Assembly (NCBI GenBank): GCA_902728285.1
Contig: CACVBU010000918.1
Location: 515,086-579,085, forward strand
Direction: 5' to 3'
From: Clytia hemisphaerica
Taxonomy: Eukaryota; Cnidaria; Hydrozoa; Leptothecata; Clytiidae
DNA length: 64,000 nucleotides
Part shown: positions 27,847 through 63,994 of the stretch, in pieces
Layout of the letters: every line of letters begins with the position of its first letter
Numbering within the stretch: the stretch's first letter is position 1
The notes under the pieces: model-generated
What the model saw: only the letters and a program-made list of their open reading frames with translations
Database searches by the model: none
Told to the model about the DNA's origin: nothing
Translations under genes and position numbers: made by a program

Positions 27847-28487
27847 CAGTGTTTCCTCAACTCCGAAAAATACCTTTCCGGCATATACTAATAATGTATC
27901 CTGTAGGTTTCTGTTTTTTAAGATTTATCACTGTTGCGATTCCGTCTGGTTGCTGGTTTCTTCATTAATCAGCATTTTTTGAGCTCTTTAAAAAGTTATT
28001 TGCTGGTACGGCTACTAGAAATAAGATAGCCAGATGTAATCTTAAAAATCGATCTTAAGACTTACGCTTAATTTCCGTCATGTGTTAGAATAATTTTGAT
28101 TGCTAAAACTATGCAATTTCTACATGGTTAAAATTCCGTCAATGTGAGGAATAATTAGGCATTCCATTACATTTTACTCCGCAGAATTGGATCCTAGGTT
28201 GAAATTTTGCTGGATCTTATTCTAACTAGATTTTCGTTTTGGACGTTGTAAACATATTGCTGGAATGTCTTAGTAAACGGCAAAAGATTTAAAAAAATGG
28301 TTTCAATTATTTGAAATACGTTTTTCCAGCATTCTCTCGTATACTACAGAAGTGTACATTTTCTTTACTAAAACGTGATTGCTGGTTTTATAGAAACGAT
28401 TCTTTTCCAACAATTGCTGATTTTCTTTTTAAATTTTAGGTGCCGATTTAACTGGTTTTTCAATTTAAACTATGATGGCCGGCATTT
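27847..28487. repeat. left terminal region of the giant element
   Basis: The outermost 39 bp match the right end in inverse orientation. Further inside, the similarity to the right end (63721-63994) fades, but short TTTCCAGCA and TGCTGG words recur (28208, 28257, 28325, 28380), as they do on the right. These are probably diverged binding words. No coding seen. Confidence 0.6.
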
Positions 28488-28665
28488 CCTGGTGTATTTA
28501 GTGACAAGCATTTGCTGGTGTTTTTGAAAAAGTGTGTCGCCAGCATTTGCTGGTGTCTCTATAAGATTGTGTCGCCAGCATTTGCTAGTGTTTTCACAAA
28601 ATTGTGTGGCCAGCATTTGCTGGTGTTTTTGAAAAAGTGTGTGGCCAGCATTTGCTGGTGTCTAC
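28488..28665. repeat. left subterminal array of TGCTGG repeats
   Basis: About five imperfect units of 35-40 bp, each centred on a CCAGCATTTGCTGG near-palindrome with spacers such as TGTTTTTGAAAAAGTGTGT. The same units occur in reverse orientation at 63395-63720. Subterminal repeats of this kind are often transposase-binding sites; that role is inferred here. Confidence 0.85.
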
Positions 28666-29786
28666 GTTTTCCAAAAAGTATTTTGTTTCTTGATGGACGT
28701 TCTAATATTTGCAAAAGCCTAAAGCTCATAAAAAGCAAATCAAGCGTGTTCAATTTAAGCTTGCAAACAATAGGTCTTTTGTTAAGAAAATAGGTTTATA
28801 CATGTTTTTTATCGTTTAGTCCAAATCCTATAAAAATTAAGAACATGGCCAGGTAGAAAGCAAGAAAATGGGACATTTTAATAAATTTAGACTTCTCTTT
28901 TCACAAAACTGGATATGTATGTTTTGACAAGATTTCAAATTTTCCAAAACAATGTTGGTTTAATCATGTTTAATTTGACCAGATGTCAAAGAGATGTTAT
29001 AAGACGTTATTGATTTCAAAATCTAAAACTTTGATAAGAATATCTTAGGCTAAAATTTGCTGAAAATAAGCACATAGGCTAAGGCAGATTTTATAATAGA
29101 AAATAAGAAATACTGAGTATTCAGTGAAAGACCTGAGGAAGATCTATAAATAATGAACACAGTACTATCTTTTGTTTGTAAAACTAAGATATATTTCAGA
29201 AGATTTTATTACTTGATAAATTTGATAAAATAAACAATAATTACATATAGGCTTGCTATAAATCTTTAGCGGTGGGAAAAGGTATTTCAAGCTTTGGCAG
29301 GAGTTCGAAAAGCATGGCAAATCGTGTACAGGTTGTACAGAGTGGTGACAAAAATACGTTTTTACCATATGATTATAATGAAAAAGTATTCAAATGACAA
29401 AAACACGCACTGAATTTCTATCCACTTCTTTTTCTTCAATTATGAAAAAAATTGAACCAGTAATATATATTTTGCATTCTTGTTAGTTTGGACGATTTTA
29501 AGAAAGATATCGGAGTTTGCGAATTTGCAGTCTACCTTTTTTAAAACTGGGTGGAGCCGTGCTTGTAATAAAGATTAGTAATCTACCTAATAGGCTATTT
29601 CATAGTCAAAATGGAAAATGGTTGTCAGGAATAGTTGCCCTCTAGTAACGACTTCCGGTTAGCTTGACGCAAAAAAGTTTGACCAATAATAAGTTGTCAT
29701 TAGTGCTCAGTGGTCCTTATTCCCCATTACGATTTGCGACCGTGAAATGGCCTATTTTAAAGGTTAAATTATACATCTAGCGGCAT
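28666..29786. other. spacer between left array and gene A 3' end
   Basis: AT-rich with no recognised gene. A short MITE-like inverted pair lies at about 29588-29757 (AATAGGCTATTTCA against TGAAATGGCCTATT). The stop codon of gene A is at 29787. No clear polyadenylation signal was seen just beyond it. Confidence 0.4.
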
Positions 29787-30296
29787 CTATTTCAATTCCT
29801 TGTATTTCTTACGTAAATATTCACGATGTGACTTGGTCAGGACGTCGTTGATTAGTGTAAACCCATATAGAATAACGCTTGCTTTTGCAATCCAGCCGTC
29901 CCACGGTATCATCTTGCGCCTTTTGTCGTTTGAATAGAGCATATGGGGAGCCCATTTCTTATTCCAGCTTCCCTTCCAATAATTTACTCTCACTTGATTT
30001 TCCTCAACTTCGATGATCTTCCCTAAGAAATCAAAAGGTTGATATTAATAGATGTAATATGTAGGTCGGTAATCAATTGAGTCACTTATCTAGCGGAGCC
30101 CAGTGAAAGAATACAAGTATTCTAAATATTTACCTATTGTAGGTTCTGTTTTGCTATCAATCAGCCATATTGCTACCATCTGTCCAGATTCCATTTTCAG
30201 CTCCGATACTATTTCCACTGCATTTCCCTTTTGCATGGCTTGCTTGTATGCTCCCGTGTATGCCTTAAAAGATTTAAGTCTGAAATAGAGTTTTGT
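29787..30296 (-). pseudogene. gene A last two exons (barrel-like C terminus)
   Basis: Exon 30296-30134 begins after TTTTTACAG (TKLYFRLKSFKAYTGAYKQA) in phase 0. It ends ...EPTIG at a GTAAAT donor. Exon 30022-29787 follows TTCTTAG and completes the split Gly codon (GKIIEVEENQVRVNYWKGSW...), ending KKYKELK stop. The alternating hydrophobic and charged strands (VAIWLID, KIIEVEENQVRVNYW) resemble a Tudor/SH3-like barrel, which may act as a chromatin or targeting module. Only one copy exists, because the tandem duplication begins just beyond it at 30368. Confidence 0.65.
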
Positions 30297-30488
30297 CTGT
30301 AAAAATTGTTGTTTCGTATTACTTCGAATAAACATCCCTACACATGCCTCTTAAGAGGCAAATTATTTCTCCTCCTCAAAGTGTCGATATTATATCGGAA
30401 AATTATTATTCTTCGCAGTTGTATTATAAAGCTATAATTGATCATACACTTAAGTAAGATTAGTTTATGGGCTATAGTCCCGGCTGTT

Positions 30489-30612
30489 ATGCGCAAATAT
30501 GTAATTATTTTGCGCAGATATATAATTTCTGCGCAAATATGTAATTATTTTGCGCAACTATGTAATTTTGAGCTGCGCAGATATGTAATTAAATTTCTGC
30601 GCAGATATGTAA
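30489..30612. repeat. left terminal array of GCGCAGATATGTAATT words
   Basis: About six units alternating GCGCA[AG]ATATGTAATT and spacer. The same array is present in reverse at 35885-36030 and again in unit B (41735-41880 and 43210-43355). Confidence 0.9.
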
Positions 30613-30734
30613 AACACAACCTTTTTGACTTAGTTATTTTTTGAAAAACTAACTAAATTTTAACATTAATTTTTCACATACAAGAAGTAATATATTGAAC
30701 ATTGTTCTTGGACTAAGGCAAACATTTGGCGATT

Positions 30735-31060
30735 GTTGTTTTTATTATAAGCATCAACTTTATAAGAACACAATTCATAACTCTTAAACCAATGATTATT
30801 AGCTTTCGGCGGTAGGTTTTTTCAAAGCAAATATAGCATTGTACTTAAGCTAGAAAGATTTATTTTTCTTATAAGCATTAACTTTATAAGAACACAATTC
30901 ATAACTCTCAAACCAATAGATATTAGCTTTCGGTGATCGGTTCTTTCAAAGCAAACATAGGATAGTGCTTAAGCTAGAAAATTTTGTTTTTCTCATGAGC
31001 ATCAACTTTATAAGAACACAATTCATAACTCCTAAACAATATTTGTTGGCTTTTGTTTGA
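30735..31060. repeat. subterminal tandem repeat, about 125-bp unit
   Basis: Three imperfect copies of a unit containing ATAAGCATCAACTTTATAAG, CACAATTCATAACTC and ATTAGCTTTCGG. The reverse-orientation counterparts at 34330-34600 and 35410-35770 contain AAGATGATGCTTATAAG and CCGAAAGCTAAAACTTAG. Confidence 0.85.
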
Positions 31061-31661
31061 TAAATCAAATCTCTGAAAGCCTATTCCACTTAGAAAAAAA
31101 ACCGTGTCCTTATAAAATTATAATAAACTAATGTTAGATTTAGCAAAATTCCCTATTTCTTTCGATAGAGCCATTGTGTCTTTGTGAATGCCAATTCCGC
31201 TTCAAGAAAATTAAATTTGTCTCCTTTTAGATGGCTTAAAGTCAAATATTTTGCCTTAGTTTAATTTGTAAGGGGAAAGTAAGAAAGACATGTAATTTTT
31301 TTAAATGTCATTAACAATCAGTGTCAAAATATTCCTGAATTATGTAACATTCTTCAGAATTTCAAGTTCGAGCGAGAATCACAACTTCGATAATCCCACT
31401 CTATTTCATTGGATAATTCAATCAAATTTAATGACTTTGCTCGTAGATCGAGCCATGAAAAGGAAAAGGGAGTTTTGTTATCATAAATTAGTCCATGTAT
31501 TGGTAAAGACAACCAAGACAATTTTACTTTATCTCACTGTAATGTAAAGAAATGCAATTCATATCTACAAAATCAATAAAGTTTACAAAGGTGTGACTAT
31601 CTCGAGTCGAGGTTCTATCGAAAATCTCATTTGTACTTTTCTATTAGGTTGTAAAAACTAC

Positions 31662-31817
31662 CGTATTTCGTCGAATAAACGCCTTGGGCGTCTTTTTAAT
31701 TTTAAGACTTTCAGGAAGGGTGTTAAAGAAAAGGGTGTTAATTAAAACTTTTAAAACCTCCCATTGAGGGAGTCTTTTTTCTCAGAGAAGGAGCGTGTAT
31801 TCGTAGGAATACGGTAA
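31662..31817. repeat. MITE with CCGTATTT ends
   Basis: The left end TACCGTATTTCGTCGAATAA pairs imperfectly with the right end TATTCGTAGGAATACGGTA. The interior has ACGCCTTGGGCG. A flanking TA on both sides is compatible with a TA-target insertion. Non-coding. Confidence 0.6.
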
Positions 31818-32033
31818 TTACTGAAAGGTAAATATTACTCTACCAAGAGTTATTTGATTCTCATAAAGTAGTTGCTTATAGGAAAAATTAATATGCTCAT
31901 ATTGTGTGTGCGCTGTCCCTTGTTTACTCTGTAAAAACTAATGACCGAAGGGTATATCACCGTCTATCAAGAGTTATTGATTTGATTCTTATAAAGTAGT
32001 TCCTTATAAAACAAATAATCAACATAAAAGGGG

Positions 32034-34324
32034 TTGCGGAACGACCGTTCCGTTTTCGCAAAGCGAAGAAATTTCGACACTAACAAATTATTTTTATAAG
32101 TCAAACTTTTATTGATAATGTTTTCCAACTCAACTCTTTCTTTTTTATAAGAATTTTATAAGAACAATACGAGGCTCAAAAATTAAATACGCCGGGTTTT
32201 GAGCAATTCAAAAACAATTTAAGGCTCAAAGTGCAAAAAAGGACAGCCAAACCTTTAAAAAAATTTACTGGTTCTTATAAAAAATAGTGCAAGTGACAAA
32301 AAAGAACACACATGTTTCTTGTGCAATGGCTGAATGACCAACAACAAAGATATTACATTAGGCTTTAGGCTGGTAATTTATCTGAATAAATTGAAAGACT
32401 TTTATCCCATCTTTTCGTGAGTTTTTGAAACAATTACTTAGCTCTCTATAAAACTTTTACAAAGACAAATTTATCAACAATTCAAAAATTATATTATACA
32501 TTTCCCTTCAAAATTTAAAAGAAAATAGTGCGTAGTTTGAAAGATGATCTTGAGCTTTTCAGCCATTAGAACCTAGGTATACAATCTCTCAAAATGTGCT
32601 ACCTCTTTATGATATCATTCACTTCAAATGTAGTATCAATTTTCCGAAAAGGAATCAGCAGCCTAGCAATAATTTCCAGTAACTTATCAAGACTAGTGAG
32701 ATTTTTTGCGTGATGAAATTTTGTCTTTTTGTGAGTCTATTTTTGCGATATTGTGTGTTCGGCAAAAAGATGTTCCCAATGTTTCATTTATAAAATCAAT
32801 CCAAACCAGTCCAAACTAATTTTTTCAAGAACCTTGCCTTGCAGAATAAAATTAAAAAACTTCTTCATATAAGTATATATATCTAAGTAATGCCATTACT
32901 TTTTATTAGGCGGTAATAATAACAAGCGTTATCTACAATCTCACGTCAAAGAGTTTATGAAAATATAAGTTGATTCGCCAGTAAAAAACACTTTTTTGTG
33001 AAAGATATCTTGTTTGAAAATATATTCGAGCTAGCATCAAAAGTAACATACAGGTACTTTTATCATTTAAGTTGTCTTTTGGGCTAAAGTCATCAATCAT
33101 GCTTTTGTTATCACTTTATCGTACAAATATAAATCGGCATTATTCTAATTGATGATGATCAAGCTCCAATGTTAAACAAAAATCTCTCGAGAGTCAGCAA
33201 GCGACAATGGAGGAATCAACAATCAATCAAGCCAAATCAAAATGATTCCATTATCGAATAAATATCGAAGAAATCTTCAAAGACGAAAATAGCAACTAGT
33301 AATTATCATTTTGATTCTGCTTTCCAGTACAGTCTTCTCTTTTGTCTCGTAAACATTGCACGGAATAACATGGAACTGGCACAATTTATATTCAGCAGGA
33401 TAGGACCATTTTATTATTCTCCATCAATCACAATCTGTTCATACAGTCATAATACTATGTATATTTTGGTTTTATGCTGCTTCTTTGTTGTGCACGTTCA
33501 CCCACCAAAACTCTGAAACACTGCTGATTCAGCCAGTCGGCCGATCGGTAGTTAAAAGTCACCCATCACATCAATCAAGCTCCTTCACCTGAACCCTGAA
33601 GACAGAAGAGATGAAAATAATTATAGTTAGAGTAAAATGAAATAAACACACGACCCATATGAATAAAAATAAGCCTGTGGAAAGAAAACATGGCCATATG
33701 ATATCCATGAAACACATGGCCGAGAAAAAAACATTTTGTTTTGTGAGATGAAATCCAATTTAATACAAAAAAGTCAACACAAAGAAAACGTACTAATGTA
33801 ACATTCCAAAGGTAGTTGAAACTATAAAGGTGAAAAAAAATGAAGATTTACCTTTCAATGGGCCATAAATCAGTCCAAAAGTTAATGCATGCACCTCAAA
33901 AACCGAAGAGATTCGTTGGTTTTCAGGGCCATCTTTGTTGTTTTGAAAATGAAACGCAGAGAAAAGACTGGGCCCAGACATCTGGAAGAAGCGGGAAAAA
34001 AGCAAAGGAGATAAAGTTTTGGTACTATTACTATTATTTGTACAAAAGTTGCAATTTTCATAAAAGATCTTACATTATAATACTCAAAACATAGATTATA
34101 TTCTATTAAAATAAGTAATTTATGAAACAAATACTTCAAATAGTGCTAAACTAATTTTAACCCCATCCAACACGAAGCAAAGTCGATATTTCGCCATCCC
34201 ACCGGCTCATTTTCAGAAATTTTCGTACATATACAGATTTTTTACGCCACGCGCAGATCTAGAGAAAGGATGCTACACTCCCTATTCGGGCGCTTCGCGC
34301 CCTCAAAACGGTCGTTCCGCAAAT
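32034..34324. mobile_element. 2.3-kb inverted-ended element, no recognised gene
   Basis: The termini TTGCGGAACGACCGTT (32034 onward) and its reverse complement (ending near 34324) are perfect over 16 bp. CGCAAAGCG- and GCGCGAAGCGC-type sequence lies just inside. The interior is AT-rich with only short frames. No target duplication was resolved. It may be a non-autonomous DNA element nested in the foldback element. Confidence 0.55.
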
Positions 34325-34620
34325 ATGATCATATTATGCGCCGTCCCTTATTTACTTTGTAAGAACTAATTACCGAAATGTATATGACCGTCTATCTAGA
34401 GTTATTGATTTAATTCTTATAAAGCTGATGCTTATAACAAAAATAGTCACATCTATTTAAGGCGCTATTCCATTTTTGCTTTGAAAGAAATTTATAGAGA
34501 ATTCTCTTATAAAGATGATTCTTATAACAAAAATAATTACTTTCATTTTAGGCGCTAGTCCATGTTTCCTTTGAAAGAACCAATTACCGAAAGCTAAAAC
34601 TTAGTGGTTGAAAAGTTATA

Positions 34621-35407
34621 CCGGGTGCACCAAAAAAAAGTATACAACTTTGTCGAGATATTGTGAGCTTCAGGATTTAACTTTTTTGTTCATTCTTTTT
34701 TTATTGTATAGAGGATGCTCTAACTTGAATTTCGAAAACTATTTAAAAAAAACTGACTTTTTTTTAATGTCGAAATTTCAAAAAACCATCAAAAACAGCG
34801 AGCAAACTTTTCTCTTGACACTTACCTTGTTTACACATAAAAATACCAAAAAATGCAACTGTGTTCATCAAAACTCGTCACGGAATTTAAGAATATGGTA
34901 AAACAAGCTATTTCCATGTAAGATAATATTTTTGGAAAAGCTGAAATTTTTTTTTGGAAATCTCCAAGGTTTTGATGTTATGATATGTGAGAAAATTTTT
35001 GAAAAAAAAGATCACCATTTCTTGACTAGTTGTTCAAAGAACTTGGGTCTGCATTGAGTTTGATGGTGTTGGAAATGTTCATGACGTGCAAATAAGATGG
35101 GCAAACTGTTGGTCAAATATAAGATAAGAGAAAAAAGAATAAAAGAAACAATGAAGTTGTTTTTTTGTCATTTTGTCTTATTTATAGCGTGATTGCTGTT
35201 TTTAATGATTTTTTGAAATTTCGACATGGAAAAAAAGTTAGTTTTTTGGAAATAACTTTCGAACTGCTTTTTCAAATTTAATCTATAATAGCTCAAAATT
35301 CAAGTTAGAGCATCCTCTATACAATAAAAAAAGAATGAACAAAAAATTTAAATCCTGAAGCTCACAATATCTCGACAAACCTGTATACTTTTTTTTGGTG
35401 CACCCGG
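34621..35407. mobile_element. mariner-like foldback MITE (787 bp)
   Basis: The ends are CCGGGTGCACCAAAAAAAAG and its complement, with arms of roughly 180 bp and flanking TA on both sides. It is inserted in one copy of the subterminal satellite. A neighbouring satellite unit (about 35523-35545) shows the empty site AAAAGTTATAGAGAATTTTC, confirming the TA duplication. Unit B keeps only the right part (about 42534-42735). Confidence 0.85.
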
Positions 35408-36092
35408 TAGATCATTTTCTTATAAAGATGATGCTTATAAGAAAAATAATTACTTTAATTTTAGGTGCTATTCCATGTTTCCTTTGAAAGAACCAATCAC
35501 CAAAAGCTAAAACTTAGTAATTGAAAAGTTATAGAGAATTTTCTTATAAAGATGATGCTTATAAGAAAAATAATTACTTTAATTTTAGGCGTTATTCCAT
35601 GTTTCCTTCGAAAGAACCAATCACCGAAAGCTAAAACTTAGTGGTTGAAAAGTTATAGAGAATTTTCTTATAACGATGATTCTTATAAGAAAAATAATTG
35701 CTTTCATTTAAGGCGCTATTCCATTTTTGCTTTGAAAGAACCAATCACCCAAAGCTAAAAATTGTTGTTATAAGATATTACTTCTTGTATTCGATAGGCA
35801 TTACCTAAAATACCTTAAGTCGAAAAAAAGGTAACAGTAATGGTAAAAGCTATCAAGGGGGTACCATTGATTTTAAAAATCGTGTTTTACATATCTGCGC
35901 AAAAATTTAATTACATATCTGCGCAGCTCGAAATTACATAGTTGCGCAAAATAATTACATATTTGCGCAGAAATTACATATCTGCGCAAAATAATTACAT
36001 ATCTGCGCAGAAATTACATATCTGCGCACAACACACCGGCTATAGCAGGGGCTATGTCTAATTTCAAATGATTCTTTATTATAATTCAATAC

Positions 36093-36979
36093 CTGTGGAG
36101 CTTCACCATGGTCCATATCGTATACTGTTCGAGCGACTTCGATTCCAGGCTCCTCGGTATTGACGGTGAAGTCCGTAGCCTGGGAATCCAAGCGTTAAAC
36201 TTTTTTCACAGTCTAGTTTATGATATTTTTGCTGCTTGTTTAACGCTTGACGCAGGTAACTCGCCTACAGGGACATTTTTCCCTGCAATGCAGGTTCGGC
36301 CTGATTGGCCAGCTTTTGGCGTATTACTTAGCAGTACTTTCGCGTGCATTTTGATAATTTCGATGTGCAAGCAATTTATGGAAAAAGCTGACTCTGCAGA
36401 AAAAAGAAAAACAAATGAAAATGAAAACATATATTCATTTCGAAACAAAATGGCTGTTGGCTGGAAGTCTAAATACATGTGGCTGATGTTTTGATGTGGT
36501 TTTTAGTAGTTTTGAAAGTCTTTAGAGCTTGTGAAAGAGTTTTTATGGTAAGTTGATTATGTGCGTTTGCCTGGGTTTCCAAAGTTCAGCAAGTCTGTCA
36601 ACAAGGGTTCACACACAGACTGTTTATAAGATTCTGTATCAGACTAATCTACCTGCACCAAGCTCTATAATTTTAGAACTTTGTGAGGTGAGGTATTTTT
36701 TGTTTTTTCTAAGATTATGAGCTTGGAGTCCCAGGCTATGAAGTCCGTTGGATTGGTCTTTTCCAGCAATTTCGGAAGCCCCCATTGAGTTTCACCTTGG
36801 TATTGGTACAACTCACTCTCGATATTTAACAAGTCACTCCACTCCTCTTTCAGTTCGACCTTGAAAAGACGAGATTCTCGGTAGTACTTTCCAATATCGT
36901 TCTTCAGGCGTGCAAAGTCTTGGCAATCTTTGTTAACTGGCAAAAGCTTTGGTGTGATTTGAAGGTTGATGTTTTCCTC
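36093..36979 (-). pseudogene. gene A exon carrying a Mutator-like insertion
   Basis: The acceptor ATATAG precedes EENINLQITPKLLPVNKDCQ. The exon runs through SDLLNIESELYQYQ to PKLLEKTNPTDF, where the element 36176-36738 intervenes. It resumes TVNTEEPGIEVARTVYDMD and ends GEAPQ at a GTATTG donor (phase 0, matching the next exon at 30296). Ignoring the insertion and one 9-bp repeat keeps the frame open, so the exon was intact before insertion. Unit B has the equivalent at 43417-44304. Confidence 0.7.
36176..36738. mobile_element. Mutator-like non-autonomous element, copy 2 (563 bp)
   Basis: The 9-bp direct repeats TGAAGTCCG flank it (36167-36175 and 36739-36747). The ends are TAGCCTGGGA and TCCCAGGCTA. 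The internal right end (ACCAAGCTCTATAATTTTAG) matches copy 1 at 17634-18473. The plus frame at 36108-36494 runs through exon and element and is not a gene. Confidence 0.9.
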
Positions 36980-37248
36980 CTATATGAACAGTAAAAAAAG
37001 AGTTTCATAAAATGGAGAATACTGGGATCTACAGTTATCTTATTTTTACTTCTATATGTCTCAGTCTCATGATCGCAAAAACACGGATAGGTAATGAACA
37101 TTTCTTCTCAGAGGCAGTCTTTATGGCAAATCTTTCGAATTATATTTGCAGTCCACAAATCAAAATGTCTCACTTAGAATCTTTTTGCCGAACCTCAGTC
37201 CACACCTTTATTATAATGATACTGTAAGTCGATGCTTATATAACTTAC

Positions 37249-37491
37249 ATTTAAAATTTTTAGTGTCTCGTAAAGTGGCAACCATTCTTTGTCGTTGGCC
37301 CAGTTTTTGTATTTCATTGATGCCACACCGTTGGACTTTACGATCTTGAAACAGTGCGGGTACACAATATTGTGAAGGCCTTTCATCATTGGACCCAACC
37401 ATTACCGAATATTGTACATGTACTCCATCAATGATATTTCAGGCATTGGCTTGTAGGTTTCCCTGATAACACGCATAAGATCTAAAATGAG
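37249..37491 (-). pseudogene. gene A exon with premature stop
   Basis: Reads RVIRETYKPMPEISLMEYMY, a TAA at 37402-37404, then MMKGLHNIVYPHCFKIVKSN, GVASMKYKNWANDKEWLPLY and ETLKILN at a GTAAGTTA donor. The C-terminal part (F..KYKNW..DKEWLP) is conserved in DUF7869-type proteins as I recall them. Unit B (44574-44804) lacks the TAA but carries a 4-bp deletion at the same place. Confidence 0.6.
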
Positions 37492-38003
37492 ATTACCGAA
37501 CTATTATCTTCAAATATTTCCACCCCACACCGCAGCCTAAGCGAGTTTATGTATCTACCTTTTGTCCTGAAACAATTTTTGACACGCAAAATCGATTACG
37601 GAAAAAGCGCTGATTTACCGTAGTCCTCAGCCGAGAAAAATAAAAAACTAAACGTCGCCGCCATTGAAAATACGGGATACATAAACTCGCTATAGATTGT
37701 TTTCTGGTGAATCAGTGATAGGTATTGATTATCTGAGATAGAGTGCTAACTATTTGGAGGCTTAAAAATACACACACAAATATACATTATTCTGGCCCCA
37801 TACCATTTGACTTACAAGATTTTCTTTGTTCTGACGGTACCAAAAGGATCGTTCGAGTTAAGGAGCCATTATTGAGACTACTACATTTCGTGCATACTGG
37901 TGATTTTTTTTATTGGAAAAGTATTTTAAAAACTACCAACGTCTAGGGTGATTGATCCCCACCACTCCCAAAATCAACGAAATCGAAATTATTTACTATT
38001 TAC

Positions 38004-38334
38004 CCTGAGTAGGTTGCTTGGGTTGGTTGAAATCCGTGAAAAGAATTGATCAATGTCATCATGTGTATGTCTGAATGGTATTGAAAAAGAAAATGCTAGA
38101 AAAGGACAAGTTTTTAATTCTAGGGTGACTTTCGGCATCTTATTAGTATATCACCGAAGAGAATTTCTTTTCAGCTCACAATTCAATCATAAAGCCACTA
38201 TATTCGCTCCAAAAATAACTAAATAAGAACCATTGTAGTCAGTTGTGGATTAGGCTAATAGCTAGTTGTCATTTCATGGGCAAATAATAATATATGAAAT
38301 ATTCTTACCCTTTCATCATGAAGTTCAACTTGAT
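38004..38334 (-). pseudogene. gene A: 26-nt micro-exon and GHTHDDIDQ exon
   Basis: Micro-exon 38334-38309 (26 nt) reads IKLNFMMKG, between ATTATAG and GTAAGA. It joins exon 38070-38004 by a split Gly codon to read HTHDDIDQFFSRISTNPSNL. The resulting GHTHDDIDQ is the family hallmark with two conserved Asp. Phase agreement across three exons makes the tiny exon credible. Confidence 0.65.
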
Positions 38335-49520: not shown

Positions 49521-49565
49521 TTGATTTTTTATGTTCAAGATTCTTCAAATAGTTTGCTGTCTATT

Positions 49566-51892: not shown

Positions 51893-53900
51893 CCTCAATA
51901 TAAAATTCAACAGTACCGAAAGGTTACCCTTTCTTCCCCATTGAATTTTAGAGATTCATTTTATTTAAACATTTTTGGACACTGACTTCGTTTTCAACTA
52001 TTCCAGTATTATTTCAAAGTCTTTCTTCAGTGTTCAAAATAGATTTTCGCGTCAGACGGAAATAGGGATTTACACAAAAAGCTACACTCTTCACATTTTG
52101 CGGACCTATTATTCTTCAGTTTGTTTATGGTTACAGTCCTCATTGCAAGTTCGTCTTTTAACTTTGTGCTAAAACTAATGAAAAACTATCGGTGATAGTT
52201 CTTTATTCGTGAGAGCCTGGTAGACTGCGACATTATCTTCAAAACTCCTTTTACTCAACTTTTAAAACGCAAGGGTTGATAGGCGTATTCTTTCAGTGTA
52301 AAAGCTATTCCTAACAGGAAGTTACCGAGAGTGAAAAACATCATATTTTCTTTTTTGCCCAGGTTCAGAATGTAGTCCAAGCAAACAGGTTATGATTACG
52401 GGCATGGATGAGTGGCAATGGGTGGAAGAGTAACTAGTTCATACCTGAAAAATCTTACCAAAGTTTGCAAAAACAAAAATATAAATATAAAATATAAAGA
52501 GGTCCATAATCTTTAGAGGGTCAATATTTCCGAAAGATTAGAGAAAATTCGAAGAAAAAATCAAGAATCAGATCAATTTTCTGCAAAAACCTCCCTACTC
52601 TTAGGTGCCAAATAAACGCCCCCACCCCTCCCCGCTTGTTAATTTTTCAAAAATTCCCCGTCGGACCTTATATAGCTATTTTGGCAGGATGTGTGCTCTC
52701 TAGAGAATAGCTTTTCGACCTTGGACATATGGCAGTCCCATCTTCTAGCTGTTTTTTATAGGTCCAAGGATTTTTGGGTTGAGAAATAGTCATCAACGAA
52801 AAATGACACCCCTGTCTCAGTGCCCTGGTGAAACTTTTTTCCTCATTGGAGATGAAAATTTCTATCAAAATCCCAATGGGAATAGAAAATATATTGCATG
52901 CAGCTCGAAAACGTCAGTGGGGAAGTGGGGATGGTTTTGAAGTACAATTATCTCTAATGTCCCACTCGGTGGGGTTGATATTTTAGGTTATTTTTTCAAC
53001 CTGAAACGATATTTTGGCTAATTTTTCGAGTGAGGTGGAGACTCGACGAGTCTGTGGCACAGGGGTGTAAAATTTGCGATCTTTAGAAAGGAAAAGAAAG
53101 TTGATGGTATTTAAAACGTGGTATAATTTTAATTTGACTCTGGTCTTCACTCAGAACGAGACTTAAGTAGGGCCTCTGCTGGCTTTGTCGTCACTTGAAG
53201 AGTTTGTTTGTACTTTTGGATATTCATTAAAAACTATCAGATTATAAAACAGTGAGAAAGCCAGGGTTTCCGCTTCTTTTTAACTTCCAATCAACAATGA
53301 AGTAACCTGCTGTTGTGTCTTAAATTTAGACCACCTGAAAAGTATTTAATTACATTATTATATTTGCATAAGGCCTCTTAGGTCACGAAATTAATTTTTG
53401 AGGTGTAGAATTAACGATACAACCACACAATGTTTGAAATGAAGCCTTTCACACAAAAAATGTAAATTAAAATAAATAAATGAATAAATAAATCAAAACT
53501 AAATTTTCAACTATTATCTATGAAAACAGAGTGTTTTCTTTACCCTAAATTTCATAAAGTACGTGACGTGTTAAACACTCTTAACATGTTTTGGACAACC
53601 CTCCAATAAAAAGAAGTAACTATATCAGAAATGTTTTGAAAGGAGGTCTTTTAAAAATTTCCAAGACCTTTCACGTTAGGATTTTTAAGGGTAAGCCACA
53701 TCTCCAAAAGTCGCAAAAATACGATTAAATGCTACTAACTAGTAGTCAAATTGATGAAAATATGATTTCCTACTTTAATTTTGAGAATACGAGAGATACC
53801 GCTAACAGTTTCAATCTCTATTTGAAACAGAGTTTATTTTAACTCCTCAAACACTCGCTCAAATGACTAGCCTGTCCAAGACAGGTACGGCTTTTTTCCA
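51893..53900. other. no gene supported
   Basis: A minus frame at 52668-52868 (66 codons) has no recognisable features. A C-rich patch lies at 52615-52640 and an AT-rich simple stretch at 53465-53500. Nothing else is supported. Confidence 0.4.
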
Positions 53901-53904
53901 TTGT

Positions 53905-54145
53905 ACCGTGCCCTCTGAAATAGCGAGCACCTCACCAAAAACCGAGATTTTTCATTCCATTTCTTGGTGAGTTCTACTTTGACGATTTTTGAAAAATAGA
54001 AGCCTTTCAAGTGCTTTGACGCAATACCGTGCCCTCTGAAATAGCGAGCACCTCACCAAAAACCGAGATTTTTCATTCCATTTCTTGGTGAGTTCTACTT
54101 TGACGATTTTTGAAAAATAGAAGCCTTTCAAGTGCTTTGACGCAA
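53905..54145. repeat. 121-bp tandem duplication
   Basis: Two perfect back-to-back copies starting ACCGTGCCCTCTGAAATAGC (53905 and 54026). On minus the single unit reads as protein-like (CVKALERLLFFKNRQSRTHQ, a stop, then VFGEVLAISEGTV), vaguely like a helix-turn-helix. It could be a decayed upstream gene A exon. Confidence 0.8.
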
Positions 54146-55680
54146 ATTCGATTTTTTTCGCTACTGCAGGAAATTCGAAAGCTAAAAGTGATGTAAAAAA
54201 ATCGAATGTTTGGAGCCCCAAACATTCGAAAAAGTCGCAGAGTGGAATAGAAGTTAGTTGCCCTGAGTATCAGAGTTTTCAAAAAACATATCAACCTCTG
54301 ATGACCAAATGTAATTGAAATGATTTTTTTTTGCGAAGGAATCCTCTACATGATTCCCAAATGTATAACAGTAATTACTAAACTATTAATTATGGCAATG
54401 TTAATTTAATGGAATCGAAATAATAGAAATGTCTTTATGTTATGATTTCTCTGTCGCTGACTCTTTTTAAAAAGCGTCGATGACATCTTTGAGTTGTGTT
54501 TTCAACGACGCGAATAAAAATATCAACTTGCAATTTACTCTAAGATCTTGGATTGTCGTCATGGTTACTGTTCTCTGCGTTGATTGCGCACTCAGTAGAA
54601 TCTTGATTGGTCGGCACAGGTCGAAATATGGGAAAGCCATAATTGACGGTTTTTTGAAAAAACTTTCGTAAGCATATGATATGCACAATGTGAGGCTAAA
54701 AAAAGTTTGCTAAGCCTAATGAGCCTCAGCACAAATTTCTCGAATGCTTTATAAAGCAAAATGGGTGTATGAGTACTTTAATTAAGGACAGAAACTTTCG
54801 CATGCAGAAACTTTCGCCTTTTTCGCGATTTCGACCCTTTTTCTCGAAAGTTACTGCCTGGTAAAAAATTAAACCTGAAAAACGCGAAGGAACTGTTTGC
54901 GAAAAAGGGGTGCTGATACAGGGGTGTTTTCATAGGGCGATTTCCCAATGGTAATATTATCTGTTTTTCATAATAATGAATTCAATGTGATGTGTTTTAT
55001 GCATAAACCTCAGCATCGCTTTCCCAGTGTCGTTTGAGTATCATGGTAAACGCTATGGCTTAGCAGCTCAAGTTTGTAAAATCACAGTGTCTGTCAGCGC
55101 CCTGATTCCTACTCCTTCGGGATTAGGACCCTTTTTGATACATCCTGAATGCTCACGTCAGTCTGTCTGGAAGGAAAACCTCAAATTATTTTCTTCCCGG
55201 TCGGGGAAAATGAAGTACGTAGCGTGGTTAGCAGGGAGCAGACGGGGCTGCCTCCTCGTACGGCGGTTTTTCTCAGGGGGTGTCGAAATGGAAGTTGCGC
55301 TATAAGGCCTTTCAGAACAAAATTCTCAGCGCCATTTTCTTTTCAAATCCAAAAAAATATGGTAATTTTTCGAGAAAAAAAAGGGAATATTGGTAGAGAA
55401 ATATTCCCCCTGGTAAAGGAAGTGCGAATTTGTCAACGTTTCAACATTTTATCTCCCACCGTTGGTCACCACATCACTGGTAAATGTTTCATCAATTTGA
55501 TTATTTAGTAGCGAATTTTCTTTGAAGAAGTCCTATAAATAATACGAATCATATTAATGAACCATGTTAATGTGAAGGTAGGTTCGGACATTTCAAAGAG
55601 CCATAAATTGAATCTAAACCAGTATAATTTGATTATCCAAAATTGTAAACGAACTAACTTCGACCAGCATTTTTTATCAG
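54146..55680. other. divergent spacer with uncertain coding traces
   Basis: Plus and minus frames near 54467-54690 and a locally GC-richer plus frame at 55027-55305 (92 codons, no domain) are open but unrecognised. This interval probably contains the 5' ends and promoters of genes A and B. No promoter motif can be fixed by eye. Confidence 0.3.
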
Positions 55681-56345
55681 ATTTTATTCAAGATTTCAAC
55701 AAGTTCGTGTTGACGTTCTAGTGGGAGAAATTTTATATGATATTCCATTTGAAATTTCAATCGATCAGGTATGTAATTTTTTTACATTGAATACGGTGTA
55801 CACATAAAAATAATTCTTAAGAAGAGAAATAGTTCATTAAAGACCTACACACTTAGCAATCTCCTCAAATTTTTTCATAGATCAAATTTCAAAGAATTTG
55901 CTGGACATACATACTAAAGTGATGACCCGTGAAAGAATTCAAGGTAGGAAATTATTATTTTAAAAAATGTATTGTTTTTCCATACATAAACCTCGCTACG
56001 TTTTAAACGTTATTCTAAAGGCCGTTACAGTAAAAAGTGTCTAGTATAAAATATAATTAAAATGATTGATCGTCCTGAATATTTTCAATGTAAAGTTCAA
56101 ACACAGAAGCGTTTTTATTTTATTTGAGTAAAATTTAAAACATATATGTAGACGTTTCGTTGTCATCTGATCACCATCATCAGTAAAATTGAAATGAAAT
56201 TCTATGTCATAAAATATCATTTCATATTCTAAGTTGAAAAAAATTTAACTTTTATTTTAGAAGAAAGTCATATCACGATCAAGAAGAAAACGAGCTGCCG
56301 AACGAGCTGATAATTTTTTTATGTGTAAAGCTTTTTTATTTTAAG
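55681..56345 (+). other. possible small spliced gene or pseudogene
   Basis: Three exon-like blocks: 55681-55768 (acceptor TTATCAG; FQQVRVDVLVGEILYDIPFE; donor GTATGT), 55881-55943 (acceptor CATAG; donor GTAGGA), and one from about 56262 with the basic KKVISRSRRKRAAERADNFF. Phases between blocks do not agree, so it is either decayed or misread. Splice-like signals and basic composition are its only support. Confidence 0.25.
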
Positions 56346-56752
56346 GACAATTTATTTATTATATTTCCAATAAATCATAAAAATATGGGATCTATTTTTC
56401 ATTGTTTCGTAAAAGTTTGAATATTGGAAGGATGAGAATAGTAGAACTAAAAATGCATCAGGAATTAAAAGTTATGTACCTACATTTTTAGGCGTTCTTT
56501 TTGGGTACTAAAATTAAATTTAATTTTCGTGCACTACAATTCTTAATTCTTTGAACTTTTAGTTTCACGATGGTTTTTTTTTCGAACAGCAGGGGGAATC
56601 GTAAAACAGATTTGTATAATACAATTCATAGGCTAATTTTTTTTGCTTCGTGATGTCTACGTAAAGTCAATCACGAAAATTATGTGTGAAAGTCCTTAAA
56701 AGCACTGTCCAAGGTGAATCTCTGGAATCATTATCTTTATTTGAAAATTAAA

Positions 56753-56938
56753 ATGTCTTCGCTCAACTCGTCATCTGATAGCGGCAAAAAAGATAAGCGG
56801 TGGTTTTTAAAACTTTTATCCAACCAGAGCGTAAACTTATTTCGCGTGAAAAGTGGGAAACCCATTGCAAGCCAAGCCGGAAAAGAAGTTGGAAATGTGG
56901 TGGCTGTGAGAGAAGGAAAAGATGAAGGGCAGATTATT
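56753..56938 (+). pseudogene. gene B exon 1
   Basis: Starts at ATG 56753 (MSSLNSSSDSGKKDKRWFLK) and runs exactly 62 codons to a GTAAGT donor in phase 0. Residues 30-62 (VKSGKPIASQAGKEVGNVVA) are Gly/Ala/Lys-mixed. No signal peptide or membrane segment. A good start choice because upstream stops close the frame. Confidence 0.65.
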
Positions 56939-57435
56939 GTAAGTATTTTAAAAAAATACGTAATTCAATTTTTTATAAACTTTCTTTGATCAATAGCTAC
57001 AGTCCACCGAAGTTGGTCCATTTTATCTGTTTTGCCCGTTTTTGACCTATAAGCCTACTTTAGAGGGCTGTGACTTTTGATAGAAGAAATATATGAAAGA
57101 ATTAAATACATACTTGAAATCAGCGAAGTTCAAAGATGAATTGAATTAGTTTGGCTCATTAGAAAACAAATTTAATTTTGTTCTTCTTCTTTTTTTTCAT
57201 TTTCAAGTTCTCCTACTCATAGTTATCTTTTCAACGAGTTATGATTTTTAATAATGTTTTTTCCTTCAAGAGCAATTAACCAAACTGTGCGGACTGCAAG
57301 TTACAGCAAAATACACACAAAATGCTGAAAATAATAACACGTGTTAAGGGAGGATATAATAAAAATATTCTTGTGAACATCATGAATATCAACAAAGCGT
57401 GGTACGTTGACTTAAGGTTCTTTTTTACTTTTAAG

Positions 57436-57745
57436 GTGATGTTTCAACATGCAACAAATGCTGTGAAATTACAAATATGCGATTTTGAATGGACAGAAAA
57501 CGAGGATTGTCAGCCGTTCGAAAAATGTGTTTGCGATGCACAGAGATTCATTGAAAAATTTAATTCGCTTTTAAAACCTCGATCGGGAAACGAAACATCT
57601 CCTATTCCAAGCAAACGACCTTTAGCAACAGCTGTCGCTAGTTCCTTATCAAAAAGACGCAAACAAGACGAAGCACAAGGATCAGGAACAGAGACTATGG
57701 ATGTTTTCTACAGTAAATTGAAGACGGAAGGAAAAATGTCTTTTG
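57436..57745 (+). pseudogene. gene B exon 2
   Basis: After CTTTTAAG: VMFQHATNAVKLQICDFEWT, CQPFEKCVCDAQRFIEKF, then a basic, disordered stretch with SLSKRRKQDEAQ (likely nuclear localisation), ending KMSFG at GTATGTG. The basic motif resembles the SKRRKIL motif of the candidate gene A first exon. Confidence 0.65.
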
Positions 57746-58602
57746 GTATGTGTCATACATTCTCTTCACTACGTGATCACTAAATTAATTTCCTTGCTTC
57801 TTTTTCTACACTTTCTTCATATGCACGTAAAGTTACTCGTAAGACTTAAAGGGGGGTTTGTACTTTTAAGATGTGACGGGATTTGCCCTTTTTTAGTACG
57901 GTATTACGGGATTTGACGAAAAAAAAAGACCTTTAAAGGAATAGGGAAATTTTCCCAACTTGCCTACTATTTCTAAGTCTTCAAGCAGAGAATTTGCTTA
58001 CCACAATATCAGTTTCTTTGAAAATTAAAAAATGTTAACAAAATCCAAAAAATAGGAGTATTTTAAAAACTTTGAATAGTTAGCACTTAAGTTTACAGGA
58101 ATGTTTACTTTTTTTTATTTCTTAAGCAAAGATTAATTTTTGCTGAGCCTGGGCATTGCCTGGGCATATGCTTATAAATTTTCTGAATTTCTATTGTTCT
58201 ATAACACTAGATCTATAGTTTTCAAACCAAAATCTCACCCTTATTATACTTATAAGCGTTATGTCTATGAATAACAAACTTGTGTATTCAACTAAAACCC
58301 TGGACTTTCTATAAATTTCACTTAAGGCAAAAATAAATAAATTTAGTGCTTCCGGAAACTATTGAAGTTCTATTTCAATGATCAAAAGTTATCAAAAAAA
58401 GCAAAAAAACAATTTTTTTCCGGCCGGCCGCATGAAAGCTTTTTTTCCTTCACCCGCATTCCGGAAACGCTACATTTTCTAAAATTATATTTCTTTAAAT
58501 CTTTCACTTCATTCTTAATTTGATTTCTTAATTACATATTTGAGAAATTTTTTCAATCTATTTCTGACGAGAACAACGCAATAATTTACGCTTTTTATTT
58601 AG

Positions 58603-58878
58603 GTTATGTCGATATTCCAGTAATTCAAATGGCTGGTGCGACCAATAGATGAAAATTTTGTCAAAAACTTGAAAGAAGATATAAGAAAACACCCGCTCTG
58701 TGTCCCCAACCTGTAATTTGCCTGGTTGAGAGTGTCAATCGGTCGGAAGATTACAAAGCTGGACAAACAAATGTTTACACGGCGATTGGAGGAAACCATC
58801 GTCGTCGTGCAATCATGGACCTTATCACAGATGGGACTTTTGATGAAAATACTACCTTGTCGACTGCCCTTGTTTTCG
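58603..58878 (+). pseudogene. gene B exon 3, ParB-like core
   Basis: Phase 1 entry gives GYVDIPVIQM. A shift then gives WLVRPIDENFVKNLKEDIRK and HPLCVPN, and a second shift gives PVICLVESVNRSEDYKAG then VYTAIGGNHRRRAIMDLI. The order (VRPI strand, helix, P-x-I strand, GGNHRRRA) is that of the ParB/sulfiredoxin fold, with GNHRR corresponding to the G-E-R-R nucleotide-binding box. Confidence 0.75.
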
Positions 58879-59715
58879 GTAAGAGCTTTCTATAATAAAT
58901 GTGCCCAATTCCTTTTTTGTGATTATAATGTCAATACTTTGCTCAGCCTCAATCATGTATTACATCAGAGAGGTATTAGTATGCTATTTGGATGAATACA
59001 CGCTTTTTCATTTCATCATTAATATTCTTTACTTTTCCGGAAAAATCTTCTTAAGGTATTCTTTGTCAATTTAAAACTTTTCAACTCTGTAACACAAAAC
59101 GGAAAAAAATTTATTGTAATTTCCTGAATTAATACTATTTCGATGGCAAAACCCTGAAATTCTTGAAATTGTTAGTGTAAATTATTTTAGGAGAGAGAAT
59201 CAAAGAAATCTCAAAATAGAAATTCTGGGCTTGCAAAACGAATTTCATGATTGCATTAATATTATTGTGACATTCTTAACTTTTTGATCAATTCCATTGT
59301 CTTTATAAAGTATATTCTTTAAAAAAAGCATGTATTAGATAAATTTTGAGTGCTTTTGAGCGCTGTGATTGGTATATCCAAAATGGTATTTTGTTTGTTA
59401 CGATTAGGTGTCTAGCTCACGAGATCATTCTAGATAATTTATTTTCTCAATTCACTACCTCGGTCACTAGTCTACACGTTTTTGTTAAAAGAATAGTATT
59501 TATAGTATTCCTAAGAAATTTTCAAAATTAAGGGTCAAATATTCTTACATTTTAAGACTTCATACAAACATGAAAATGACCTTTTTGAGAGTTTGAGCTC
59601 ATATAAAAAAGACTGTAATTGAGGTAGAACGTTTTGCGTTCAATTTGAAACATTTGCATAAATGTCCGAAATTTTACGTCGTTTTGAATATGATTTTCTT
59701 TTGTCTCAAATTTAG

Positions 59716-61478
59716 GTCTTGATGAACTTGAATGTTTGGAATTAGGCATAGAGCATAACCGACAAAATCAGCAGCTGAAGAAGATGACAAATAGGGACAA
59801 ATTAGAAATTTGTTGGCGTGTTCGAAAAAGTTCAAACAAGAAACAGTGGAGGCAGCGTTGTTTCACAATCTTCAATGAAGAAGTAAGAACAATTCGAAAT
59901 CATCCGAAGCAACCTTCTGTTTTCATTACCATTAGCTTGGTAATTGTTTTTCTGACGCCTAAAATGTTCTGTTTGCACTATAGATTTTTGCGAGCTTCTT
60001 ATCAACATTATGCCTTGTACCTTGCCTTTTTACTAGATGGGATTCTCCTAAACTCGAACTTGTAGTTTTTGCGAGTTAAAAGACAACAATTATTGACCAC
60101 ATTTCTTCTTCAATCTGCATTTTTCTAGGAATCCACGTTAGAATATTATTTCGCAATTGCAAAAAATGGATGACAAGATTGTCGAAAACGTCATCAATAT
60201 CATGACGGTTTACAACAACACCAACAAGTTTGAGTGTAAAATGAGCCAGTTTAAAGAGCTTCTTAATCTTCCGTCAGAAGAAGTAAGAGCAATTCTGGAG
60301 GACTGCTTCTCAGAGCCGAAGCAAATCAACAAGAAGGCAAAAGCGCGAAAAGAGATTCAAGATGTTAAACTCGCAATTTCGGACAGCGTTGGAATAGAGG
60401 ATTGGGATGTTATCACAGAAAGGTATAAGATTTTATTTAAGCCAAAAACATGCTTTTGTAATTTAATATACAGCTTAAAATGCTCTTTTTTAATATGCCA
60501 AATTCAACTCCCTCTATTGACTATGCTTAGGTCATTTGAACTCATCTGATTCCAAAAATATAATTTTTCCAAGCTTTACTGGGTCGAAAAGGTACTGCCT
60601 CTAGAAGGTGAATCCCAGCAAAATAGGTGGTTTTCAGCTCCATCTCCTATTGTTGACTGGGGAGAAATCATTATACTGTTGGAATCAGTATAATTCCAAA
60701 GTATTTCTGTACCAAAAATGAGGCTTTGTCAACTAAAAAAATATGTATATTAACCATGTATGTGAAGTAACTTTATTTTCTCTATTTTAGCTACCCTATA
60801 TTCGCAGAAGAAGAATCTTACACCCATTTCTCAGGACGAGTAAAACGCGGGAAACCTATTCCAGACTCGTTTAAGACGTTCATTCGAGGTGTTTTTAAGG
60901 ACACAGAAAAAGAAGAACGCAATATTGAGCTTTTGGAGATAGACTTGAACTCGCCAAGACCTTGCTTCGATAAAATTCGTTCCTTGGAGCAACCGATCAA
61001 AAGTTGATTGTGAACACCAAGACAGTAAGCATCTATTTTTTTCTTATGTTCTTATGTAAAAAGATAAACTTCCTTCAATATCTTTGATCTTTTAACTTAA
61101 TTATTCATTGTCTCGGTGTAATTTACCATTTTCCTCTACGTACAAACAAAGATTCCCTTATAGTTTTAGAATTCAAATCCAAGCAAAGTTTGCAGAATGC
61201 ACAATTTTAGTGGTAACATGTGCAAAAGGGCGTTTTTCAACAACCGTGACTATACATTTTTCAACTTTACTTTTAGGATCACACAGAACATTTTTATGAC
61301 GATTTGGTTCGACAATACATTTCGGTCAATGTGCTTTCGGGTGAAATCGGTGACCATCAAATCACTTTTATAGTGAACCCTGATACAGAGGAATGGATGT
61401 CATTGACTTTGAAACTAAAGGCTATTCTTACAAGTGCAAAACTAAACTACAGAGAAGTCCTGGTTACCGAAGAAAATG
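59716..61478 (+). pseudogene. gene B exons 4-7
   Basis: Exon 4 (59716-59882): DELECLELGIEHNRQNQQLK, KLEICWRVRKSSNKKQW. Exon 5 (60129-60422): MSQFKELLNLPSEEVRAILE, probably helical; one-base shift near 60150. Exon 6 (60791-61024): PIFAEEESYTHFSGRVKRGK, FIRGVFKDTEKEERNIELLE; one-base shift near 61000. Exon 7 (61277-61478): DHTEHFYDDLVRQYISVNVL, ending TEENG. All have canonical splice edges and mutually consistent phases. No domain was recognised after the ParB-like part. Confidence 0.6.
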
Positions 61479-61823
61479 GTTAGTACATAGCTACACATAC
61501 TGTACTTACATATAGTCCTTCCTTCCATTTTCATTTGGATAATGCCTTTTACAGACTTCGATTAAATAGTGATACCAATACTCTCAAAATACTTAAAAAA
61601 TGTCGATCGTTTTTTGCCTTGAGTAGAGTAAGAAAAGAAACTGCTGCTTTCGAACAAGCGCTCTATTTCATTACTTTGACGCAATCGCTAACAATTATAC
61701 AAATAAAAATAGATCGACTATAATCGAATACATTCACCGACTGCAAGGAAGGGTTTCTAATGGTGCACCTATTTTTCATCTTTCACAGAGGCTGTATCAG
61801 GTATTTTTCTGTGACCTTTTTAG

Positions 61824-62372
61824 GAAAGTCCGTCTTGATGGTTGTTGGAAGCACTACAAAACCAAGCAAACGATTTACAGCAATCAATGGACACTATTTG
61901 GAAGAGATCAATAAACTTGATGGTTGTGTTAATGGCTTATTCGTTCATATATTTAATAACAATGGTAAATTTTTATTCTATTAGTTTTCATTTGGCGAAC
62001 ATCCTGAGAAAGAATCTATAAAAGGCCTCCTATAAAGGGACGATAAAATTCAAAACAGAGAGTCCAGATATATCATATGTATTATTTTTCGTACTGGAAG
62101 AAAATTGAGTTTTGATATATGGGGATCTACACTTGATGCTAAAATAATGCTTCAAATACCTTAGAATGAATGATCAACCACTTTTTTATCTGTTTGTTAT
62201 AAGTAACACAATCTCTGAAATTCTAAACAATATAAATCACAGCACAGTGCTCATCGATAACGACCTGAAAGAGTTGGAAATTGCGTACAGTCTCTCCACG
62301 GACGATGTTAATTTCGAGCAAGATGTACTTGAGAGTCTCGAGAGCAACGAAACGGTGAACGAAACTACCTGA
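61824..62372 (+). pseudogene. gene B exons 8-9 and stop
   Basis: Exon 8 (61824-61964): GKSVLMVVGSTTKPSKRFTA, ending FNNNG at GTAAAT. The last coding block (about 62166-62372) reads FYLFVISNTISEILNNINHS to ESLESNETVNETT stop. Its acceptor does not keep phase, so an indel or another acceptor is likely. The acidic tail is unremarkable. Confidence 0.5.
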
Positions 62373-62451
62373 TTATATATAATGATTACTTTTTTTCTCA
62401 GGTTTTATTTTAATATCTTTCATCTTGTGTTGGAAGCCTTTCAAAATGAGA

Positions 62452-62457
62452 AATAAA
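62452..62457 (+). terminator. polyadenylation signal after gene B
   Basis: AATAAA lies 80 bp after the gene B stop codon, on the coding strand, in AT-rich DNA where chance matches are common. Confidence 0.4.
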
Positions 62458-62459
62458 TT

Positions 62460-63220
62460 AGATTAAAATTTTGTAGAAAGATTTTAATGGTGTGAAATCG
62501 TTCCAAATTTTTATGCCTTCCTGTGTCTCAAAGGAGAAAGATTTTCATTGTTTGTTCTTTAAATCAATGTACATAATATTAACATTTTTAAAGCATCTCG
62601 TTTTTATATTGCTTAGTAATCTGTTGGGCTTTTGTAGTGTAAATGCTTTATCTTGTACTATAATTATTCTTTTACACCAGATATATTTTCAATATTCCAA
62701 AATAATTTTATATTAGAATAATTGACATTAAATAATTTATCTCAAAAATCAAAATCAATCTAAAGTTGTGTCTGTCTTTTTATTTGAAATATCTTATCAT
62801 TAATTAATTGCCTTATTGATAGGTTGATAAAGCAACTTTTTTTCGGAAAAACAAAAACATTGAATAGAATAGCGATCAGCTATCAGATCCTTGTTTTTGA
62901 CAAGAGTCATACGGGTATACAGGATGCAGTCCATTCAGTTGTTTTTGTTTTCCGTTTGCCTTCGTCCTTGTGTTAATCGTGTTAAGTGTTTTGAAGTAAA
63001 CTTTCTTTCTTGTGTAAAAACTGCACGAGGCTCAAAATTCGGAACAATAAGAACACATTAAGAACAACTAGACTCGACGTGCTGAAAGAATATGAACAGC
63101 TAAGCCTCAACAAAAACTTACTGTTTGATACAAAAATTCATTAACACCATTATGGTGATAAGTAAGTTAAATTCCCCGAAAAAAGAATACATCATGTTTA
63201 TACATTTCGAGCACCATTTA
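62460..63220. other. spacer between gene B and right terminus
   Basis: AT-rich, with short frames only. No gene recognised. Confidence 0.4.
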
Positions 63221-63223
63221 GAC

Positions 63224-63343
63224 CTTTTCATAAATTACGTCACGAACATCACTTGCCTCGTATTCAAACAATTGCCATGGTGATTACGTCCCATGTCAAA
63301 AACAAGCAAGACAAGTAATGTTCGTAACGTAATTTATGAAAAG
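63224..63343. repeat. small MITE (120 bp)
   Basis: Inverted ends CTTTTCATAAATTACGT and its complement, arms about 36 bp with few mismatches. Centre GCCATGGTGATTACGTCC. Non-coding. Target duplication not resolved. Confidence 0.8.
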
Positions 63344-63394
63344 ATGTATTATATCTGAAAGTCTGAATAGAAAAAACACCAGGAAACAGCACAT

Positions 63395-63720
63395 ATTTTT
63401 TCGAAAATACTAGCAAATGCTGGCCACACAATTTTGTGAAAACGCAATCAAATCTTGGCCACTAAAAACATCAGCTAATGTTGGCCACACAATTTGGGGA
63501 CAACACCAGCAAATGCTGGCGACACACTTTTTCAAAAACACCAGCAAGTGTTGGCCACACACTTTTGTGAAAACACCAGCAAATGCTGGCCACACAATTT
63601 TGTGAAATCACCAGCAAATGTTTGTCACTAAATACACCAGCAAATGTTGGCCACACACTTTTGTGAAATCACCAGCAAATGCTGGCCACACACTTTTTCA
63701 AAAACACCAGCAAATTCTAG
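63395..63720. repeat. right subterminal array of CCAGCAAATGCTGG repeats
   Basis: About nine imperfect units of 35-40 bp (for example GCCACACACTTTTTCAAAAA then CACCAGCAAATGCTGG), in reverse orientation to 28488-28665. Not a CRISPR array: spacers are not unique and the genome is eukaryotic. Confidence 0.9.
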
Positions 63721-63994
63721 GCAGAATCTGGATAATATTTTCCACAAGCTCTTGTTAATTATGATGTACCAGCTAATACAACTTCCAGTTAATATCTATG
63801 AAGGGATTAATAATTTGTTGTAACTTAGCAATAAATTTAACGCTTGTCTGCTGGAAAAAATGTGACTTTCCGAAATTCAGGAGGGAGTATACAAATATTA
63901 CTTACGGGTGCTGGAAAATTAATTTTCAGGCAAAAAGTTTCTTTTTGAATACAACTATGCTGGAAAGGTATTTTTCTGAGTTGAGGAAACAATG
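63721..63994. repeat. right terminal region of the giant element
   Basis: The last 39 bp (63956-63994) are the inverted match to 27847-27885. GCTGGAAAA words at 63850 and 63910 echo the left end. The window stops six bases after the putative end. Confidence 0.65.

Follow-up and report, generated by a model that had tools for sequence, protein, structure and literature searches.

The analysed window, a 64-kb stretch of contig CACVBU010000918.1 of the hydrozoan Clytia hemisphaerica, contains a giant DNA element with paired ends at positions 27847–63994, which carries two broken copies of a gene of the DUF7869 family and a second multi-exon gene. Its left terminal inverted repeat (TIR) lies at 27847–27885 on the plus strand (possibly starting at 27845, with AACAGTG) and its right one at 63956–63994 on the minus strand (possibly ending at 63996). 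The two are inverted, 36 kb apart and identical at 36 of 39 positions, as befits a TIR (class II, subclass 1) DNA transposon; re-alignment returned the count given in a preliminary description of this locus. Lengthening both repeats by two bases (AACAGTG...CAATGTT) brings the identity to 38/41, and the repeat including these outer bases can be written as AACA(G/T)TGTTTCCTCAACTC. A 30-base core pattern of the repeats (≤3 mismatches) occurs at exactly two sites in the window and at none in 100 shuffles, and the terminal repeat pattern had no match in collections of viral and prokaryote sequence.

Subterminal arrays and flanks

Each end possesses an array of one short repeat just inside the terminus, as had been described before. 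The left array (28476–28680, plus strand) is built of a 35-bp unit with the palindrome CCAGCA..TGCTGG, and the right array (63377–63720, minus strand) consists of the same unit in inverted orientation. A tandem repeat scan counted 4.4 copies at 28507–28661 and 9.8 copies at 63390–63715; the longest ungapped arm pair between the arrays spans 186 nt with 82% complementarity. Counted on both strands, TGCTGG occurs 14 times in 27847–28680 and 14 times in 63377–63994, against 9 occurrences in the 34.7-kb interior and 8 in the 27.8-kb left flank, and CCAGCA is the top enriched 6-mer common to both ends. Between terminus and array the density of TGCTGG/CCAGCA reaches 9.5 and 11.1 per kb at the two ends versus 0.26, while the terminal repeats themselves hold TGCCGG (left) and TGCTGG (right). 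Because the motif is concentrated at both ends and scarce in the interior, the two ends form a pair, and its distribution resembles that of sites at which a transposase binds the termini of a single element.

With the ends placed at CAGTG..CAATG, the flanks agree at 5 of the 6 visible bases for an 8-bp target duplication (candidate TCGTTGAA at 27839–27846; TTGTTG at 63995–64000, where the window ends). With the repeats lengthened by two bases, an exact 4/4 duplication GTTG appears (27841–27844 and 63997–64000), both readings coming from a single alignment register. Agreement at ≥5 of 6 bases has a chance probability of 0.007 when a single length is considered, without correction for the number of lengths tried; the duplication test at the termini covered outward shifts of −2 to +4 only. 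The flank agreement behind the 8-bp duplication proposed earlier holds, but the duplication may be of 4 or 8 bp, as GTTG with the 41-bp repeat matches the flanking sequence at least as well. The outer AA/TT would also be accounted for by a preference for palindromic targets. TG..CA ends of the integrase type (core TGTTTCC...GGAAACA) were considered as well and rejected, no fitting duplication being found there by eye.

The left flank contains a fragment of a long interspersed nuclear element (LINE; 26561–27846, minus strand). Its reverse transcriptase frame, already noticed in the preliminary description, matches RVT_1 within 26561–27418 (E 3.3e-25), the rest being open frame. The further claim that the LINE frame stops abruptly at the terminus was not confirmed: the open piece touching the terminus (27304–27846) matched no Pfam family, and its frame runs on past the terminus to 27924. 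Since LINEs are frequently 5′-truncated, the left flank alone is no proof of insertion. Two further reverse transcriptase frames lie elsewhere in the window, at 4244–6037 (minus strand; RVT_1 E 3.9e-34) and 21215–22096 (plus strand; RVT_1 E 7.1e-30).

A single copy of the element is known, and the bases to the right of 64000 lie outside the window, which leaves room for the view that no insertion took place and that two unrelated repeats of one family happen to stand in opposite orientation 36 kb apart. We consider this very improbable. The ends face outward at both extremes, an array and the motif follow just inside each of them, and the flanks agree; moreover, a short element would show both of its ends at each place, whereas the pattern occurs once at each.

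The DUF7869 gene and its predicted fold

The first copy of the DUF7869 gene occupies 36668–41269 on the minus strand. It is a multi-exon gene and not intact, with a PF25273 match of E 3.4e-34 and a C-terminal part recovered in another frame (E 1.7e-8); the exon near 41036–41269 was assigned by eye. The second copy, a broken tandem duplicate, lies on the same strand at 43966–48653 (PF25273 E 5.5e-34). Scores of 118.6 and 117.9 bits against a curated cut-off of 26 place the gene in PF25273 (DUF7869). The gene is dead here: each of its copies is interrupted by an in-frame stop and by one or more frame-breaking changes. GC content is 0.40 in exons and 0.33 in introns. An NCBI protein of C. hemisphaerica (P0001) matches the exon at 38426–38896 with 99% identity and 71% query coverage, and pieces of this protein map onto exons of both copies.

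Six-frame Pfam scans covered 27847–42500 and 49000–63994 at E ≤ 0.1, leaving out 42501–48999, which is mostly duplicate; single-frame scans were also run, at a looser limit. Across the stretches of the element that were scanned, PF25273 alone exceeded its Pfam cut-off; everything else in the single-frame scans stayed below cut-off. Weak matches inside the element to DUF5609 (0.043), TetR_HI_0893_C (0.038), Herpes_U34 (0.051), SWIRM-assoc_1 (0.058) and PH (0.044) were taken as chance. No Rfam match at gathering score was found in the window.

Two AlphaFold2 models of DUF7869 relatives resemble integrase-type DDE enzymes (IS21 IstA, Mos1/SETMAR and retroviral integrases), with which the core also shares the layout of its acidic residues: D, D and E/D are near-invariant among the relatives, about 40 residues separating the second from the third. 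In relatives, the N-terminal part weakly resembles an RFX-type winged helix. In contrast, the two PDB sequences matched at E ≤ 1 include no transposase or integrase. Judged by model and conservation, the DUF7869 core looks like a DDE domain, and we predict the protein to be a DDE transposase. This prediction is independent of which element owns the gene and would hold even if the gene belonged to a smaller nested element. If correct, it would provide a function for a widespread animal domain of unknown role, together with a candidate transposon superfamily.

DUF7869 is found in cnidarians, echinoderms, lancelets, a hemichordate and bivalves. One lancelet protein (P0098, Branchiostoma lanceolatum) combines it with a piece of a Ulp1-type protease (PF02902, E 1.6e-6), representing either a fusion or a gene-model error. 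In the viral sequence collection 54 stretches matched a DUF7869 pattern and none was confirmed; in the prokaryote collection 3 of 33 were confirmed (L001–L003). These three reside on contigs of 3.6–6.4 kb from metagenome-assembled genomes labelled Bacteroidetes (two) or Arcticimaribacter (one) and are probably eukaryotic contamination. Inverted repeats sought around their DUF7869 genes were not convincing (none in L001, one weak pair in L002, and six in L003 with one common right end). In the open-licence literature searched, the name DUF7869 does not occur and no DUF7869 transposon is named, although such a transposon may already bear a Repbase name, Repbase being outside the comparison. Among the literature matches listed for PF25273, IPR057191 (which we take to be the number for DUF7869), DUF7869 or the string GHTHED, all are unrelated by title and hold only the string.

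The second gene

A second multi-exon gene is located at 56752–61478 on the plus strand, possibly continuing to about 62369, and runs towards the right end of the element. It comprises about seven exons and is decayed, with frame changes. Exons and their limits were drawn by eye. In the limits as drawn, 3 of 6 acceptors have AG, and 3 of 7 donors GT, at the exact position; with a tolerance of 1 base all 6 acceptors have AG, and with one of 2 bases 6 of 7 donors have GT. The exons have a GC content of 0.40 and the introns of 0.30. The gene matched no Pfam family above cut-off and had no homologue at E ≤ 0.001 among 7994 candidates scored. A resemblance to a ParB-like GNHRR motif was considered and dropped, as Pfam, NCBIfam, PHROGs and PDB sequences lent it no support.

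Internal duplication and array-bounded units

Self-comparison revealed an 11.2-kb segment in tandem duplication. The first copy occupies 30372–41617 and contains a 194-bp extra piece of the DUF7869 gene; the second (41618 to about 48811, right limit set by eye) has a 3.8-kb deletion, which removed the counterpart of about 31364–35205. Positions 42532–48774 are 98.1% identical to 35206–41390 (6253 aligned bases), and two further pieces of the segment align at 93.8% and 96.2%. Within the first copy, inverted arrays of GCGCAGATATGTAATT repeats delimit a unit at 30487–36012 (arms 30487–30626 and 35875–36012, 132/138 identical), possibly a nested element. Its shortened counterpart in the second copy spans 41717–43370 (arms 41717–41891 and 43201–43370, 162/170 identical). 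Both units show inverted arrays of TGCGCAGATATGTAATT, the second-copy version with 3.8 kb deleted.

The preliminary description had proposed one large element inflated by later events, which agrees with the paired ends, the 11.2-kb tandem duplication and an internal unit with inverted arrays of its own. By subtraction, the element without the second segment copy and the array-bounded unit would measure roughly 23 kb.

One arrangement weighs against a single element: inverted arms 163/171 identical and 6 kb apart (35875–36046 and 41717–41891) bracket DUF7869 copy 1, defining an alternative unit at 35875–41891. The locus could accordingly be composite, the DUF7869 gene belonging to this 6-kb element with inverted GCGCAGATATG arms, nested in an older, unrelated large element and tandemly duplicated afterwards. 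The first repeat scan, with 208 candidate pairs, points the same way, the best 15 of the 208 lying in the arrays and inverted duplicates. We nevertheless regard a composite origin as unlikely, though it is the strongest alternative and deserves serious consideration. The same arms also pair away from the gene, in the units at 30487–36012 and 41717–43370, and none of the three array-bounded units has a target duplication of 3–10 bases at its ends. The array repeat matches 21 times in 28001–48600 and not once in 48601–63400, hence no array stands to the right of copy 2. Outside the arrays, repeat pairs around DUF7869 with right ends in 48600–63380 number 7, the best being 19/22 with a 4-bp duplication, while 10 shuffles gave 3–12 candidates with best values of 15–18; no pair is clearly above the shuffles, and none has its right end in 41250–41618. 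In the simplest history, one duplication took in the gene along with the array-bounded unit adjoining it, so that copy 1 came to have arms on either side by chance.

Comparison with known transposons and proposed mechanism

Elements of the hAT type are a few kb long, with CAGTG-like termini and short motifs repeated in the subterminal regions. The element described here is similar in its ends, in its subterminal repeats and in a possible 8-bp duplication, but its length is 36 kb (about 23 kb without the later changes), and its DUF7869 core lacks a long insertion between the second and third acidic residues. No hAT Pfam family was detected in the six-frame scans, although a hAT transposase decayed beyond Pfam recognition is conceivable. 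The earlier assignment to the hAT type is therefore not supported: DUF7869, with its integrase-like predicted fold, stands alone among transposase-like families above cut-off, and the duplication can be read as 4 or 8 bp.

A giant non-autonomous hAT-type element, its ends recognised by a hAT transposase from elsewhere and both the DUF7869 gene and the second gene being passengers, would account for the hAT-like termini and arrays and for the 5/6 match of the 8-bp reading; the right duplication copy also fits the hAT target consensus nTnnnnAn as far as it is visible. We rate this scenario as improbable but not negligible, given that the six-frame Pfam scans showed no hAT domain and that the 4-bp reading is exact. 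Integrase-type elements differ in another respect, as they mostly have TG..CA ends, whereas those found here are CA..TG or AA..TT.

Duplications of 8 bp are described for hAT and, together with TIRs, for Zisupton (PMC12730594). Zisupton and KDZ elements are alike in possessing TIRs, and Zisupton would also match the 8-bp reading of the duplication; no KDZ Pfam match was found in the six-frame scans of the element or in 7 DUF7869 relatives. Sola elements share a possible 4-bp duplication and have D-N and G-H motifs of similar flavour. GTTG does not fit the AT-rich AWWT given for Sola2 duplications (PMC3627910). Polinton/Maverick, Teratorn and other giant elements are similar in spanning tens of kilobases between TIRs. 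However, the type-B DNA polymerase, integrase and capsid genes of Polinton/Maverick gave no match in the six-frame scans, and among all matches above cut-off in the Pfam scans of the element there was no herpesvirus gene and no gene for a polymerase, a capsid or a retroviral-type integrase. Outside it, at 18380–18664, a weak DDE_Tnp_4 match (E 0.014) remained below cut-off.

Between the ends no other gene resembling a transposase was found than DUF7869, which favours its ownership by the large element; we tentatively take its protein for the transposase of this element, the likeliest single reading. We hypothesize that 27847–63994 represents a single TIR-type DNA transposon, old and no longer active, whose insertion took place in or beside the LINE. 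The N-terminal part of the DUF7869 protein may have bound the GCTGG sites at both ends and paired them, and the D-D-D/E centre would have cut at the CA(G/T)TG borders. Joining of the element to staggered target DNA would then have produced the short duplication (4 or 8 bp), and growth to the present 36 kb may have followed later, through the tandem duplication of 11 kb and perhaps also a nested insertion. For this full account, a dead, very large hydrozoan TIR transposon mobilised by a DUF7869 transposase and later enlarged, we see the chances as evenly balanced. If it is true, TIR elements can reach lengths of tens of kilobases and carry a second gene. More doubtfully, we speculate that animals harbour an undescribed DNA transposon superfamily defined by DUF7869, whose transposase would combine an integrase-type DDE core with an RFX-like DNA-binding part and move two-gene elements of >20 kb with inverted arrays of palindromic binding sites at their ends.

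Other repeats within the element

An inverted repeat at 50839–51538 has arms of 320 nt, 93% complementary and 60 nt apart, and may be a small foldback or MITE-like (miniature inverted-repeat transposable element-like) element. A 121-bp unit at 53904–54145 is present in two perfect tandem copies. Finally, 49208–49514 contains pieces similar to 3842–3964 (88%) and 8816–8999 (81%), representing an interspersed repeat that occurs both inside and outside the element.

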